DNA of 29,665 nucleotides from a virus: IMG/VR virus record IMGVR_UViG_3300020186_000074, positions 1 to 29,665 of that record; one strand, 5' to 3'. The position numbers and the translations under genes are program-made. The notes beneath the pieces are model-generated. The model was not told the origin of the DNA and did not search any database. It worked only from the letters and a program-made list of their open reading frames with translations. Every line of letters starts with the position of its first letter. Position 1 is the first letter of the stretch. Positions 17,761 through 29,584 of the stretch are shown piece after piece.

Positions 17761-17993
17761 GCCGCATCATTGGCACATGGAACCCCGCCAATGAGGGGAA
17801 GTTCATAATGACGCCGCGGCGCAAAACGGGGTGCGCGCGGAAGGCATACCGCCCCGCCGCGAAGGCGCTCCCTCCCGTGTATGTGGTGAAGGTTGACCAC
17901 GCCAGCAGGCGCGCCTATCGGATGATCCCGAGCGGCGGACCTCGAAACCTTCATCGGACGTATCGGCCCGCCGCCCTCCGGGGTGAGCGATGA
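17754..17993 (+). CDS. small basic protein between direct repeats
   Basis: A 79-residue basic protein of unknown function ([40 protein letters not shown]). Its ATG overlaps the preceding stop. A second in-frame ATG at 17808 has GGGGAAG upstream and could be the real start. The gene is bounded by the two copies of the 29-base repeat, and its last residues (ALRGER) equal those of the gene before it, so it may have been inserted or exchanged as a unit. Confidence 0.6.
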
Positions 17994-17996
17994 CCC
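17968..17996 (+). repeat. 29-base direct repeat, copy 2
   Basis: Identical to 17732-17760 and 236 bases away from it. It again spans a stop/start junction (ATGA at 17990). Confidence 0.9.
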
Positions 17997-18355
17997 CCGA
18001 CGAGATCGCCGAGACGCTGCGGCTGCACGGGATGTGGCTTCGCGGCGGGACCGCCGGTTTGCGCGCCGACCTCTCCGGGGCGAACCTCTCCGGGGCGTTC
18101 CTCTCCGGGGCGAACCTCAGAGGGGCGTTCCTCTCCGGGGCGGACCTCAGCGAGGCGAACCTCTCCGGGGCGAACCTCTCCTGGGCGAACCTCTCCGGGG
18201 CGTTCCTCTCCGGGGCGAACCTCAGAGGGGCGAACCTCTCCGGGGCGGACCTCTACAAGGCGTACCTCTCCGGGGCGTTCCTCTCCTGGGCGAAGATCAG
18301 CGCCGATCAGGTCGAGCAGATCATCGCGGCGCTGGGAATCGAGGTGACGCAGTGA
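17990..18355 (+). CDS. pentapeptide-repeat protein
   Basis: A 121-residue protein whose residues about 24-104 are some sixteen pentapeptides of the A(D/N)LSG type ([20 protein letters not shown]). Such proteins fold as a right-handed square beta-helix; some mimic DNA and bind gyrase, but most phage members have no known role. An N-terminal helix ([19 protein letters not shown]) and C-terminal helix ([17 protein letters not shown]) cap the solenoid. The DNA has a 15-base period (CTCTCCGGGGCGAAC), evidence of recent repeat expansion. It is coupled to its neighbours by ATGA and GTGA overlaps. Confidence 0.9.
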
Positions 18356-21351: not shown

Positions 21352-21626
21352 GCGCCGAGCCGTTGACGAGTCAGGAGCGGTTTGACCGCCTCTTCACGTT
21401 CGGCGCCGATCCCGACGATGCCATCGTCCACTCGGCCAAGACGGTCAGGCGCTACGAGGCCACCGTGCAGGCCGAGACGGCTCGCGCTGACGCAGCCGAG
21501 GTGCGGGCGGAGCGGCTGGCCGAGACGATTCGGTGGGCACGAAGCCGCGCGCTCCGCCACGACGAGGTCCTAGTTCACCAGCTGACGGAAGTTCTCGCCG
21601 CATACCGGCCGGAGGGCGAGCGATGA
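21348..21626 (+). CDS. coiled-coil paralogue 1
   Basis: A 92-residue protein from GTG 21348. It starts VSAEPLTSQERFDRL and contains the coiled-coil unit EATVQAETARADAAEVRAER, followed by LAE. The opening and the unit recur in the gene at 24745, and partly in those at 24091 and 23583. Function unknown. Bases 21456-21524 match 24871-24939 at 65 of 69 positions. Confidence 0.7.
   Translation: MSAEPLTSQERFDRLFTFGADPDDAIVHSAKTVRRYEATVQAETARADAAEVRAERLAETIRWARSRALRHDEVLVHQLTEVLAAYRPEGER
21456..21524 (+). repeat. 69-base coiled-coil unit, copy 1
   Basis: Encodes EATVQAETARADAAEVRAER plus LAE and matches 24871-24939 with 4 mismatches. This is far closer than the rest of the two genes. Confidence 0.85.
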
Positions 21627-22393
21627 GCGCGCAGACGAAGCGGCGATGCAACGGGAAGACCTGCATCACGATCCTCTCGTCCTACAACTCGGACCCCGAA
21701 GGGCTCTGCGGGCCATGCCGGCGGGCGGATACCGACGCCGCCGTCCTCCGGTTCCGGGCGCAGATGGAGAAGCGCGATGCCGCCCCACCGGTGACGCGCG
21801 CGCACACGCAGATGTGGCGGGTGCTGCGAGCCATGCCGGCGAGTGCGCGTGAGATCGCTGCGGCGACCGGCATCGGTCTCGACAAGGTGCGCATCACCGC
21901 GCACGACGCATGTGCAGATGGCAGGGCGGGGCAGCGCAAGCGCACGCGGTCGGGGTCGCAGGGCGAGAGGACCGAGTACGTGTGCCTCGTCGATCTGCCT
22001 ATGCCGACCGGGGCCGGGAACGCGAAGTACACGCGGGAGTCGCTGATCGTGGCGCTCCACGACATGCGCCGGTTTCTCGGGCGGGCTCCGATCGCCGAGG
22101 ACTGTGGCACCCCCTGGCCCTCGCGCTCCACGTTCGAACGCCACTTCAAGTCGTGGAACGAGGCGCTCCACGCGGCGGGAATCAGGGCGAAGGTCGCGCC
22201 GCGTGCCGACCTTGTCCGGCTCCTGTCCGAAGGACCCTCGACGTCTACCGAACTGTCTAAGCGCCTTGGGCGCAGCGTCAACGCCGTGACGAGCAACCTC
22301 TTCCAGATGTACCGAGACGGTGTCGCCGAGCGCGAGTGGATCCCGCAAGGCCGACGCTACGTCTACCGGCTCGTGCCGAGTCGGCCCGCGTGA
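21623..22393 (+). CDS. DNA-binding protein: zinc knuckle, two winged helices, HNH-associated repeat
   Basis: A 256-residue protein (ATGA overlap at 21623) built of four parts: a Cys4 zinc motif (Cys9, 14, 29, 32), a winged-helix-like region at about 62-122 (MWRVLRAMPASAREIAAATG), a homing-endonuclease-associated repeat at about 136-187 (YTRESLIVALHDMRRFLGRA, FERHFKSWNEALHAAG), and a second winged helix at about 192-250 (LVRLLSEGPSTSTELSKRLG). No HNH catalytic domain is present. The repeat type usually gives DNA target recognition to HNH enzymes, so this is more likely a regulator or a nuclease-derived DNA-binding protein. Confidence 0.75.
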   Translation: MSAQTKRRCNGKTCITILSSYNSDPEGLCGPCRRADTDAAVLRFRAQMEKRDAAPPVTRAHTQMWRVLRAMPASAREIAAATGIGLDKVRITAHDACADGRAGQRKRTRSGSQGERTEYVCLVDLPMPTGAGNAKYTRESLIVALHDMRRFLGRAPIAEDCGTPWPSRSTFERHFKSWNEALHAAGIRAKVAPRADLVRLLSEGPSTSTELSKRLGRSVNAVTSNLFQMYRDGVAEREWIPQGRRYVYRLVPSRPA

Positions 22394-25592: not shown

Positions 25593-25822
25593 ACCGCGAC
25601 GAGCGGCGTGCCGCGATCCTCGAGGCGATGGCCGGCGGGCAGTCGCTCACGCCGTCTCGCATCGCGCAGGGCATCGAGGGGCTATCGACGGTCGCCTGTT
25701 GGGCGGAGCTGGGACGCATGTGGGAGGACGGCCTCGTGTCATGGCTGGGCGAGCACACGTACCGGCTGGTCGTGTACCGCGCCCCCGTGGATGAGCAGAC
25801 CGTCATGGACGTGGAGGCGTGA
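25589..25822 (+). CDS. small winged-helix protein
   Basis: A 77-residue protein from GTG 25589. RRAAILEAMAGGQSLTPSRI, WAELGRMWEDGLVSWLGEHT and a terminal strand (YRLVVYRA) make a winged helix-turn-helix. It is probably a transcription regulator or a DNA-binding accessory of the resolvase or methyltransferase on either side. Confidence 0.65.
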   Translation: MNRDERRAAILEAMAGGQSLTPSRIAQGIEGLSTVACWAELGRMWEDGLVSWLGEHTYRLVVYRAPVDEQTVMDVEA

Positions 25823-27033
25823 GCGTTCACCTCGACGACGGCGACGTGGTGCTGCACCTGGGCGATTGCGTCGAGGTCATGGCCGCTATGCCCGCCGAGT
25901 CGGTGGACGCCATCGTGACCGACCCGCCGTACGGATTGAGCCGCGAGCCGGACATAGCCGAGGTGCTGCGTCGCTGGCTAGCGGGCGACGACTACAACCA
26001 TCGCGGCGCCGGATTCATGGGGCGCGCCTGGGACTCGTTTGTTCCCGGCCCGGCGGTCTGGCGCGAGTGCTGGCGCGTGCTGAAGCCCGGAGGTCACCTG
26101 CTCGCCTTCTCGGGCACCCGCACGTCGGATCTCCAGACCATCGCCATCCGTCTCGCGGGCTTCCAGATTCGAGAATCTCTTGTGTTTCTTCACGGCTCGG
26201 GATTTCCGAAGTCCCTGAACGTGTCCAAGGCAATCGACAAGGCGGCCGGGGCCGAGCGGGAGGTGGTGGGCGACAAGCTCAACCGACCGGGGTACCACCT
26301 CAACGGGCACGACGGCGGAGAAGCTTTCGGGCACGGGCTGTCCTCGTCAACCCCCGATACGCGCATGGCGGCGGCGCAGATCACCGCGCCCGCCACGCCC
26401 GAGGCCGCTGCCTGGGAAGGGTGGCATACGGCACTCAAGCCCGCCCACGAGCCGATCGTCATGGCCCGCAAGCCGCTTGCCGAGAGGACCGTGGCGGCGC
26501 AGGTGCTAGCGACCGGAACCGGGGCGATCAACGTGGACGGGTGCCGGATTGGCTGGGCATACGAGGGCGAAGCGGGCGAGACAGAAGCCCGATGCTCTCC
26601 GAACGCCCGAGGCCGCAAGCGGGTTGCGACTGTCGAGGTCACACCGGAAACCATCGCCGTGAACATCAACCCCGCCGGACGCTGGCCCGCCAACGTGATC
26701 CTCGACGAGCGGGCTGCCGAGATGCTGGACGCGGCCGTGGGGGAGAGTCCCGGACCATCACGGTTCTTCTACACCTCCAAGGCGAGCACCGCCGAGCGTG
26801 ACGGGGCTACGCATCCAACGACGAAGCCGCTCGACCTGATGCGCTGGCTTGTGCGGCTCGTCACGCCGCCGGTGGGTGGCGTGGTGCTCGACCCCTTCGC
26901 CGGATCGGGTACGACGCTGCTGGCCGCCCGTAACGAGGGCTTCCGGGCCATCGGCATCGAGCGCGAGGCCGAGTACGCCGCCATGTGCGCGCACCGCCTA
27001 CGGCAGCTCACACTGGAAATGGGGGCGCGATGA
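25819..27033 (+). CDS. orphan DNA methyltransferase (DPPY type)
   Basis: A 404-residue amino-methyltransferase. The catalytic motif IV DPPY is at residues 35-38 (VDAIVTDPPYGLS) and the cofactor-binding motif I DPFAGSGTT is at 358-366, so the order is that of the beta class. Between them lies a large insert (about 120-330), with NVSKAIDKAAGAEREVVGDK, as seen in phage members. It probably methylates adenine N6 or cytosine N4 to protect phage DNA from host restriction; no partner restriction enzyme is present. It starts on a GTG overlapping the previous stop. Sequence specificity is unknown. Confidence 0.85.
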   Translation: MSVHLDDGDVVLHLGDCVEVMAAMPAESVDAIVTDPPYGLSREPDIAEVLRRWLAGDDYNHRGAGFMGRAWDSFVPGPAVWRECWRVLKPGGHLLAFSGTRTSDLQTIAIRLAGFQIRESLVFLHGSGFPKSLNVSKAIDKAAGAEREVVGDKLNRPGYHLNGHDGGEAFGHGLSSSTPDTRMAAAQITAPATPEAAAWEGWHTALKPAHEPIVMARKPLAERTVAAQVLATGTGAINVDGCRIGWAYEGEAGETEARCSPNARGRKRVATVEVTPETIAVNINPAGRWPANVILDERAAEMLDAAVGESPGPSRFFYTSKASTAERDGATHPTTKPLDLMRWLVRLVTPPVGGVVLDPFAGSGTTLLAARNEGFRAIGIEREAEYAAMCAHRLRQLTLEMGAR

Positions 27034-27218
27034 CCGACCTGAAAGAGATTCCCGAGGGGGCTGAGGATTCAGTGAGCGTGCTCCGCGTGGTGCTGAAGGC
27101 GCGTGATGAGGAACTGACCCGTCTGCGCGTGCGCGTGCAGGAGGAGTTCATGCGCCGTCGAGAGGCAGAGTGGCGGCTCGAGTCCGCGCTGCACGACCGA
27201 CCGCCGATCCACGCGTAG
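27030..27218 (+). CDS. short coiled-coil protein
   Basis: A 62-residue charged helical protein (ATGA overlap) with VLKARDEELTRLRVRVQEEF and MRRREAEWRLESALHD. It directly precedes the helicase-like gene with a 2-base gap. Unknown; a loader or accessory of the helicase is possible from position. Confidence 0.6.
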   Translation: MTDLKEIPEGAEDSVSVLRVVLKARDEELTRLRVRVQEEFMRRREAEWRLESALHDRPPIHA

Positions 27219-27220
27219 GG

Positions 27221-28315
27221 ATGGCGATATCGCACCTCCACCCCCTCGACGGGGGTCACGACGACGACCCCGACCCCTGGGGCCTCTCCGACGACCCCCC
27301 GGCGCTCGAGCGCAAGAGGTACCGATCGGGACAAGAGATCTTCGACGCCGCGCCCGATCACGTCCCCTGGATATGGGACGGGTACGCCGCGGTCGGCACC
27401 ATTACCCTGTTCGCCGGTCGCCACAAGGGCGGAAAGAGCACGCTGCTGTTCGAGTTCATCGGCGCCATGTGCGAGGGCCGCGAGCACTACCTCGGACACA
27501 AGATCGCTCCGAGCCCCGTGGTGCTGCTCACCGAGGAGGGGGTGGAAACCCTCCGGGACAAGCTGGAGTCGATTGAGGAGGCCGCGCGTGAGCGCCTGCG
27601 CGTACTCACGCGGGCTGAAGTATCGCCGCGTGGCGAATACGATTGGGCTACGGCCGTGCGCGACGCCGGCATGGAGGCGCTCGAGTGGGGCGCCCGGATC
27701 GTGGTGGTGGACACCTTCGCGTTCTGGGCGCAGATCCGCGACGAAAACGACAACTCGCTGATGCAGGAGGTCGTGAGCGTGCTCGGCGAGCTGACCGTGC
27801 AGGGGCTCGCGGTGATCGTTGTGCATCACTCCCGCAAGGAAGGCGGCGAGGACGGCAACGCCATCCGCGGCGCGAGCAGCCTGCAAGGCGCCGTGGACAT
27901 CATCGTGGAGATGGTCAAGCCGCCGGCCGAGAAGGACGACCAGGACGAATCGGCGGAGCGCGAGCTGCGAGCCATCGGCCGGTTCCCCGGCATCCCCGAG
28001 GCGCTCAGAGTGAAGCTGGTTGACGGCCGCTACAAGGTCATCGGCGAGGGCACAAGGGCACAGATGAAGGCGCTCGCAGGAGAAGCGCGGGTGCTCCAGG
28101 TGCTCAGGGATTCGTACCCTGAGACGATCGACGGTGGGGCGCTGAGAGAGTCAACCGGGCAGCCAAAGGAGACGTCTAATCGGCACCTCCGGGCGCTCGA
28201 GCAGGCGGGCACGATCGAGGCGTTCTCGGACGGCAACGGGAAGCCCAAGAGGTACCGCTGGAGCGGTCCCGCAGCACCGGATCCGTTCCCCCTCGGACCC
28301 CTCAATGGAGGCTGA
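27221..28315 (+). CDS. RecA-fold replicative helicase / RepA-like ATPase
   Basis: A 364-residue protein of the RepA/AAA_25 type. Walker A is at 66-73 (FAGRHKGGKSTLLFEF), a catalytic Glu105 in VVLLTEEGVETL, Walker B at 160-164 (RIVVVDTFAFWA), and a sensor-like VIVVHHSRK near 198-206. A winged helix follows at about 285-355 (VLQVLRDSYPETIDGGALRE, RHLRALEQAGTIEAF). Such proteins unwind DNA as hexamers in plasmid and phage replication. The start 27221 leaves the frame clear of the upstream gene. The motif array directly behind it may be its origin or loading site. Confidence 0.8.
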   Translation: MAISHLHPLDGGHDDDPDPWGLSDDPPALERKRYRSGQEIFDAAPDHVPWIWDGYAAVGTITLFAGRHKGGKSTLLFEFIGAMCEGREHYLGHKIAPSPVVLLTEEGVETLRDKLESIEEAARERLRVLTRAEVSPRGEYDWATAVRDAGMEALEWGARIVVVDTFAFWAQIRDENDNSLMQEVVSVLGELTVQGLAVIVVHHSRKEGGEDGNAIRGASSLQGAVDIIVEMVKPPAEKDDQDESAERELRAIGRFPGIPEALRVKLVDGRYKVIGEGTRAQMKALAGEARVLQVLRDSYPETIDGGALRESTGQPKETSNRHLRALEQAGTIEAFSDGNGKPKRYRWSGPAAPDPFPLGPLNGG

Positions 28316-28316
28316 T

Positions 28317-28499
28317 ATGGACCGACCCACTGACCGACCCACAACCGACCCACACCGACCCAAAGGCTTTCATCGCAAGGCCCCGAAGACCGACCCATCC
28401 GACCGACCCTTTAGGGGAGGTCGGTGGGTCGGTCGGGATACGGGGGAAGAAAACGGGTCGGTAGCGTGGGTCGGTTCGTCGCTGCGGGTGATGACGTGA
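28317..28499 (+). CDS. possible 60-residue protein encoded over the repeat array
   Basis: A frame with GGAGG (28307-28311) 5 bases before ATG 28317 and a stop overlapping the next GTG (GTGA). The product (MDRPTDRPTTDPHRPKGFHR...) is basic and Pro-rich. The repeated unit occurs in different reading frames along it, so the DNA motif, not the protein, appears conserved. It may be translated only to keep coupling between neighbours. Confidence 0.35.
   Translation: MDRPTDRPTTDPHRPKGFHRKAPKTDPSDRPFRGGRWVGRDTGEENGSVAWVGSSLRVMT
28321..28475. repeat. array of nine 9-bp motifs (candidate origin or operator)
   Basis: The motif ACCGACCCA occurs forward at 28321, 28333, 28344, 28354 and 28389, with a one-base variant at 28402, and inverted (TGGGTCGGT) at 28425 and 28467, with a variant at 28454. 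The first four start 12, 11 and 10 bases apart, about one helical turn. The inner copies at 28402 and 28425 form an inverted pair. Iteron clusters behind a helicase or initiator gene are a known origin layout; an operator array is the alternative. Confidence 0.75.
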
Positions 28500-29152
28500 G
28501 CCGACGTGGATACGGATGGATGATCGCGCTGATCGTGTGCGCCGCGTTCTGGGGAGCGGTCGGGGCGACGATTCACCAGGCGGCCGGCGCACCGCTCGTC
28601 GAGGCCACCGTGCTCGGGGACGTCGATGTGCTGAACGCGCGATCGCAGACCTACCTCGCCCAGACGCTGAGGCTGCCGATCCAGCAGGGGCGCCCCGTGC
28701 TCGAGGGCAGCCCGCAGGAGATGGGGCCCTACGCCGGGCTGAGTTACCGGGACCGGGTGGTGATGGGGCGCTACACGCTCCTCGGCATCACGATCGGCGA
28801 TCCCGAGTCGCTGCACATCCTGCTCCACGAGTCGCTGCACACCGACGGGACGCACGAGGAGGAAGGGATCGTGGACGCCTTCACCTGGGATCTGTTCCCG
28901 GCATGGTCGTATCGCCTCACCGGCGTACGCCAGCCGATGGCCGCCGCCGTGTACCCGTCGGAGGTGCAGGCGATACGCAAGGCATCGTCGCTTGCGACGG
29001 GCTCACCGTGGAGGACACGGCCTGCGCGTCTGTGGAGGCGCGCGCTGTGGATGGCCGACGAGCCGACCAGGCAGACGCTCCTCGCCGAAGCGTGGGCACG
29101 GCCGGGGCTCGATGGCCGCGAGCCGGTCTGCTGCATGACCGAGGTGCGCTGA
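28496..29152 (+). CDS. membrane-anchored HExxH protein (metalloprotease-like)
   Basis: A 218-residue protein from GTG 28496. Residues about 8-24 (WMIALIVCAAFWGAVGA) form a signal anchor. The zinc-type motif His111-Glu112-x-x-His115 lies in LHILLHESLHTDGTHEEEGI, with several candidate third ligands (His120, Glu121-123, Asp127). The rest is helical. It would act outside the membrane if active. No full family match is recognised, and phages rarely carry such proteins, so activity is inference from the motif. Confidence 0.65.
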   Translation: MSRRGYGWMIALIVCAAFWGAVGATIHQAAGAPLVEATVLGDVDVLNARSQTYLAQTLRLPIQQGRPVLEGSPQEMGPYAGLSYRDRVVMGRYTLLGITIGDPESLHILLHESLHTDGTHEEEGIVDAFTWDLFPAWSYRLTGVRQPMAAAVYPSEVQAIRKASSLATGSPWRTRPARLWRRALWMADEPTRQTLLAEAWARPGLDGREPVCCMTEVR

Positions 29153-29518: not shown

Positions 29519-29545
29519 GGCCACCCCTCACCTGGTGGTCTTTTT
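29519..29545 (+). terminator. Rho-independent terminator at the end of the right arm
   Basis: GGCCACC (29519-29525) pairs with GGTGGTC (29534-29540), one pair a wobble, with an 8-base loop, directly followed by TTTTT (29541-29545). It is oriented to end the + strand transcript of the right-arm operon. Confidence 0.7.
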
Positions 29546-29584
29546 CGTTCCTACGCCACGTGGTCTTTTTCGTTCCTACGCCAC
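29535..29584 (+). repeat. tandem 25-base direct repeat, two copies
   Basis: Bases 29535-29559 and 29560-29584 are identical and adjacent. Each starts GTGGTCTTTTTC and ends ACGCCAC; the ends GTGG and CCAC are complementary, and the junction makes the palindrome CCACGTGG. The T-tract of the terminator is within copy 1 and is repeated in copy 2. Confidence 0.9.

Follow-up and report, generated by a model that had tools for sequence, protein, structure and literature searches.

The segment 28316–28495 of the window (the whole 29,665-nucleotide stretch of viral DNA that was analysed), situated directly behind the gene of a RepA-like helicase, is probably a phage replication origin, a reading to which a rough probability of 0.74 is given; its iterons would be bound by the winged helix of the helicase itself, which would load at a dyad without a separate loader. 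The preliminary description of this DNA had offered a phage origin, a site bound by the winged helix of the helicase, or an operator, and comparative evidence favours the first two, which merge into a single reading. The features of the region are as follows:

27221–28315, plus strand: hexameric helicase of the RSF1010-RepA type (AAA_25), proposed initiator (Pfam, profile and fold)
28305–28499, plus strand: overlapping open reading frame of 64 amino acids, judged not to be a gene (no family match; peptide lost in the relative L016)
28316–28495, no strand: proposed replication origin, the entire gap from the helicase stop to the next gene (word array and strong dyad)
28321–28362, plus strand: left iteron set, four exact copies of ACCGACCCA with starts 12, 11 and 10 bp apart
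28365–28385, plus strand: small hairpin and core, with ATCGCAAGGCCCCG at 28372–28385 (core identical in L016)
28388–28434, no strand: central stem-loop of 19 pairs, loop TTTA at 28410–28413 (energy folding)
28389–28410, plus strand: forward iterons 5 and 6 (the sixth with one mismatch), forming the left stem arm (word search)
28425–28433, minus strand: inverted iteron, forming the right stem arm (word search)
28454–28475, minus strand: two more inverted iterons, the first with one mismatch (word search and fold)

The array is real, and its number of copies is far above chance. Exact copies of ACCGACCCA start at 28321, 28333, 28344, 28354 and 28389 in the forward orientation and at 28425 and 28467 in the inverted one, and copies with one mismatch start at 28402 (forward, ending in CCT) and 28454 (inverted, ending in CCG); the start-to-start spacings of the forward copies are 12, 11, 10, 35 and 13 bases. 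All seven exact copies in the whole 29,665-base record lie within 28321–28475. The seven exact 9-mer copies per 160 bp compare with a maximum of 3 in 100 third-order Markov genomes, while matches with at most one mismatch number 22 where 10.6 were expected, a count reached in 0 of 100 shuffles. The array occupies the gap between the helicase stop (28315) and the next plausible start, GTG at 28496. The word search confirmed what had been described at 28321–28475, namely six forward and three inverted copies, spacings of 12, 11 and 10 bases between the first four, and a position directly behind a helicase-like gene; of the nine copies attributed to one word, seven are exact and two carry one mismatch. 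The copies had also been placed in different frames of the small open reading frame, which holds for two phases (four versus two forward copies), not for three.

This open reading frame, of 60 amino acids if counted from the ATG at 28317, spans the array, which would accord with a coding repeat of a small protein, devoid of any role at the DNA level. Such a reading is extremely improbable and was rejected, as the copies lie in two phases and on both strands and the peptide is not conserved in L016; no Pfam or PHROGs match was found for 28317–28499. L016 lacks both the peptide and the word of the window but retains the array, its spacing, the position of the stem-loop and a core of 14 bases. 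Accordingly, it is the layout that is conserved, and selection bears on this DNA architecture and not on the 60-residue frame, in agreement with the earlier suggestion of selection on the DNA; the opposite case, a peptide retained with the motif gone, was not seen.

The helicase gene, for which an alternative GTG start at 27170 is possible, encodes a product with a match to Pfam AAA_25 (E 3e-23) and an AAA_25/RepA core in which Walker A is present. Its nearest solved structure is RepA of RSF1010 (profile match 1g8y, E 9e-16; fold match 1olo). The C-terminus of the structure model (pLDDT 80.7) has the order H-H-H-E-E, and a winged helix of three helices and a two-stranded wing is predicted at residues about 279–347 of the 364-aa form; the C-terminal part modelled alone (pLDDT 72) matches winged-helix domains. 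The product is predicted to be an initiator helicase with a C-terminal domain for binding double-stranded DNA. Owing to this extra predicted winged helix, it differs from a stand-alone RepA, which has no origin-binding domain of its own, and represents a helicase related to RSF1010 RepA, yet of a different kind. No primase domain was detected in the product by Pfam, and no primase gene was found on the fragment, which is a weak point of the origin reading.

Several other genes and repeats were annotated in the record. Just upstream of the helicase gene, 25819–27033 (plus strand) encodes a 404-aa DNA methyltransferase (N6_N4_Mtase, PHROG 67), whose profile matches are split over two stretches of its sequence, and the product of 21533–22393 (plus strand) matches both HNH_repeat, which is associated with homing endonucleases, and winged helices. 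The gene behind the array, 28496–29152 (plus strand), encodes a protein that matches no family and has a hydrophobic N-terminus and a zincin-like HExxH motif, HESLH. The other strong repeat signal of the record is a 15-nt DNA repeat at 17990–18355 (plus strand), encoding a 121-aa pentapeptide-repeat protein. Near the record end, at 29533–29582, two tandem copies of a unit of about 25 bases (gtggtctttttcgttcctacgccac) were recognized by eye.

The central stem is built of forward and inverted words, with its apex 96.5 nt past the helicase stop, and in the single-strand fold the inverted iterons at 28454–28475 form pairs with those of the left set. The fold z of the 180 nt after the stop is −8.6; the array folds nearly equally on the two strands (z −6.69 and −6.66), and no terminator T-run was found at it. 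This near-equality, together with the missing terminator tail, is more easily reconciled with a DNA dyad than with a device acting as RNA. An element that works at the transcript level, be it a terminator, an attenuator or a small structured RNA, is very unlikely: the strong single-strand fold (z −6.7), retained in L016 despite a different sequence, is compatible with it, but equal folding of both strands is what a DNA dyad predicts, and a hairpin does not require forward copies in tandem at intervals of one helical turn. Moreover, the terminator hairpin of pRN1 is dispensable, whereas its large stem-loop is required for replication (PMC4234260). On these grounds, and for want of a T-run, the terminator reading was rejected. 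Masking of the words, which asks whether the hairpin is separate from them, gave values below 0.05 in five of eight phage arrays; in the window, the words themselves form the stem.

The lack of a clear AT-rich element, earlier counted against an origin, was borne out and stays a weak point of the origin reading: the 180 nt after the stop contain 64% GC (57–68% in relatives) and no AT-rich unwinding region beside or between the repeat sets, a GC-rich dyad being present there instead. The array was therefore not assigned to the classical iteron/DUE replicons. Stem-loop origins of the pRN1 kind are independent of iterons plus DUE (PMC4234260). The record is a complete IMG/VR entry, which starts at a capsid gene, ends 1.2 kb past the array and is probably a fragment. 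No switch of GC skew was seen at the array, but on a fragment the skew test is uninformative.

A single close relative, L016, was found in the viral collection; its helicase is 59% identical to that of the window. The L016 array starts at the helicase stop codon and is built of another word, CTTGCTCAC, represented by five forward copies, one exact inverted copy and partial copies; all six exact copies belong to the array, and none occurs elsewhere in the 42.7-kb record. Thus, the search of related phages for the motif cluster, suggested in the preliminary description, revealed an array at the same position, but with a different word. The 14-base core ATCGCAAGGCCCCG is common to both and has the same offset. 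The apex of the stem-loop is at the same distance from the stop in L016 as in the window, and the stem-loops span positions 73–119 (window) and 74–116 (L016) after the stop, although the stem arms are identical at only 10 of 22 and 8 of 22 positions. Similar to the pRN1 type, a large stem-loop behind a replication gene has here retained its fold without its sequence. The winged helices of the two proteins differ around the recognition helix, and two such sequences prove nothing on co-evolution.

Further searches of viral contigs with ATCGCAAGGCCCCG gave 98 stretches, with an array only in the L016 record and the others chance-like; relaxing the core pattern did not change this outcome. The triple pattern of ACCGACCCA was found in 12 viral stretches, none of which contained a forward-plus-inverted array of ACCGACCCA according to the array detector. 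By helicase protein search, no relative was detected in plasmids, and only distant AAA_25 proteins were detected in phages.

Motif and alignment searches yielded 23 AAA_25-type loci with downstream DNA, including the window. An array lies no more than 250 nt from the stop in nine of them (each 0 of 300 shuffles), namely, the window, L016 and seven other helicase relatives, and each has its own word: ACCGACCC, CTTGCTCA, AGCGTGGC, ACGCTTGC, TATCGGCT, GGGGTGCC, GCTCCACC, CGCCAGTC and GCCGCAGT. Eight arrays stand behind the stop, while that of L202 (GGGGTGCC) sits within the coding tail. The position is near-exclusive where word copies were counted over whole records: the array holds 7 of 7 in the window, 6 of 6 in L016, 6 of 8 in L155 and 8 of 13 in L218 (L216–L218 are related more weakly, with tblastn E of 2e-6 to 1e-4). 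The remaining 14 loci, some with arrays inside the gene or elsewhere, have no 3' array, which counts against the origin reading and makes the rule frequent, not universal; four helicases of MAGs, studied by genome contig scans, are among these 14 and are without arrays.

The eight flanks with an array behind the stop have fold z of −4.0 to −8.6 (180 nt), and 13 helicase flanks lacking one at this place have z of +1.3 to −1.9, with two exceptions (−3.4 and −4.0). By energy folding, the apex of the longest hairpin is located at +83 to +97 in seven of the eight array loci, but a simple ungapped dyad scan placed the centre at +84 to +98 in only four of the eight, and the constant apex position is therefore suggestive only.

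In the cultured Synechococcus phage S-CBS1, copies of GTGCGAAAC are present right after the part coding for the winged helix. In L193 (MW202711, 2720–2960), TGAACGTG words lie within the coding part of repA, well ahead of its stop. Arrays in two orientations, obtained by chance, were also found in L147 (7815–8025, TTCTGACG), L018 (9200–9430, GTGGAAGG) and L047 (5780–6020, GAAACATTG), behind genes of primases or VapE-type helicases of other families, which suggests that the arrangement is widespread. No array was found behind the gene in question in any of the five phages with a primase/polymerase relative (BFK20, NBR1, Sour, NTR1 and Fransoyer), four of which have a separate helicase gene.

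These comparisons bear on two other explanations. An operator array, through which a phage repressor or the autorepressing winged helix of the helicase would control downstream genes or silence the replication module, is unlikely. Many short asymmetric sites in a gap ahead of a downstream gene would suit it, as would the winged-helix folds common among repressors; however, no sigma-70-like promoter was predicted in 27900–28900, with poor coverage of actinobacterial promoters, the genes behind the arrays vary (HNH, zincin-like, unknown), and the arrays track helicases and primases of several families, whereas operators are expected to be scattered or at promoters, not bound to the 3' end of a replication gene. 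The second explanation, a site serving partition, packaging or recombination (iterons of the centromere type, pac/cos, or arm sites for integration), is highly improbable and was rejected: such sites are likewise built of short repeated words, but no gene of ParA/ParB, terminase or integrase was found among the scanned neighbours, and the position behind helicase genes is constant in relatives.

For the replication origin, the following mechanism is proposed. The helicase encoded upstream would act as its own initiator, its C-terminal winged helix binding the ACCGACCCA iterons, which on one side of the dyad follow each other at about one helical turn and on the other are inverted. Two helicase rings may thereby be brought face to face over the dyad, which would open or extrude as a stem-loop; the helicase would then load onto the exposed single strands and unwind the DNA, and priming could be carried out there by host DnaG or by a phage primase encoded off the fragment. 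The iteron word and the winged helix may evolve together, while position, spacing and dyad stay, and such co-evolution is proposed to give each phage its private word, as if the gene product and its site were a matched lock and key across related phages.

For origins of uncultured phages, this gives a simple rule, namely, to look for a private word together with a dyad at the 3' end of the helicase gene. Natural initiator–origin pairs with differing words could allow a recognition code of the winged helix to be derived, and the reason for word turnover becomes testable; the iterons of PLE satellites change under pressure from a nuclease that attacks and cuts the origin (PMC8263062). Downstream iteron origins with initiator helicases that read them are already known. 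In the literature searched, mostly papers outside subscription, a putative downstream iteron origin with phage RepA-type helicases fused to a winged helix is new, as are the turnover of words while the layout stays fixed and the joining of iterons to a pRN1-like stem-loop.

Among known systems, RSF1010 provides the closest solved relative of the helicase core, RepA. Its initiation uses iterons plus hairpins, and the iterons are bound by RepC, a protein separate from the helicase RepA (PMC4234260); the protein of the window, in which a predicted winged helix is joined to a RepA-like helicase, thus looks like a fusion of helicase and DNA binder. pRN1 needs a stem-loop downstream of orf904, with diverging sequence and retained fold, and phage BIP-1 has a similar stem-loop after its replication gene (PMC4234260). 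As in the window, the stem-loop follows a gene whose product carries a winged helix at its C-terminus (predicted in the window), but both are reported without iterons and have an AEP primase and SF3 helicase, whereas the window has iterons and an AAA_25 helicase.

The annotated 302-bp ori of Streptococcus phage Sfi21 (34487–34784), behind a putative primase gene, contains TTAGTTAC words in both orientations, and its strong dyad has the apex about 104 nt after the stop; it differs in its long AT-rich centre, host and helicase family. In satellite phage P4, the cis-required region crr carries 8-bp ori repeats in two orientations directly behind the alpha helicase gene, and these are bound by the C-terminal winged helix of alpha (PMC4234260); however, P4 has a separate ori about 4.5 kb off and an AT-richer flank, and alpha, a member of another helicase family, contains a Toprim-type primase. 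In the Staphylococcus systems SaPI Rep-ori and SCCmec Cch2-ori, the C-terminal domain of the initiator helicase binds iterons directly downstream of its own gene (PMC7581432). Their helicases are of the DUF927 / D5 type and binding is demonstrated, while the helicase of the window is of the AAA_25 type and would bind its iterons by analogy; as in SaPI, P4 and Sfi21, multiple short repeats stand directly behind the gene of the proposed initiator.
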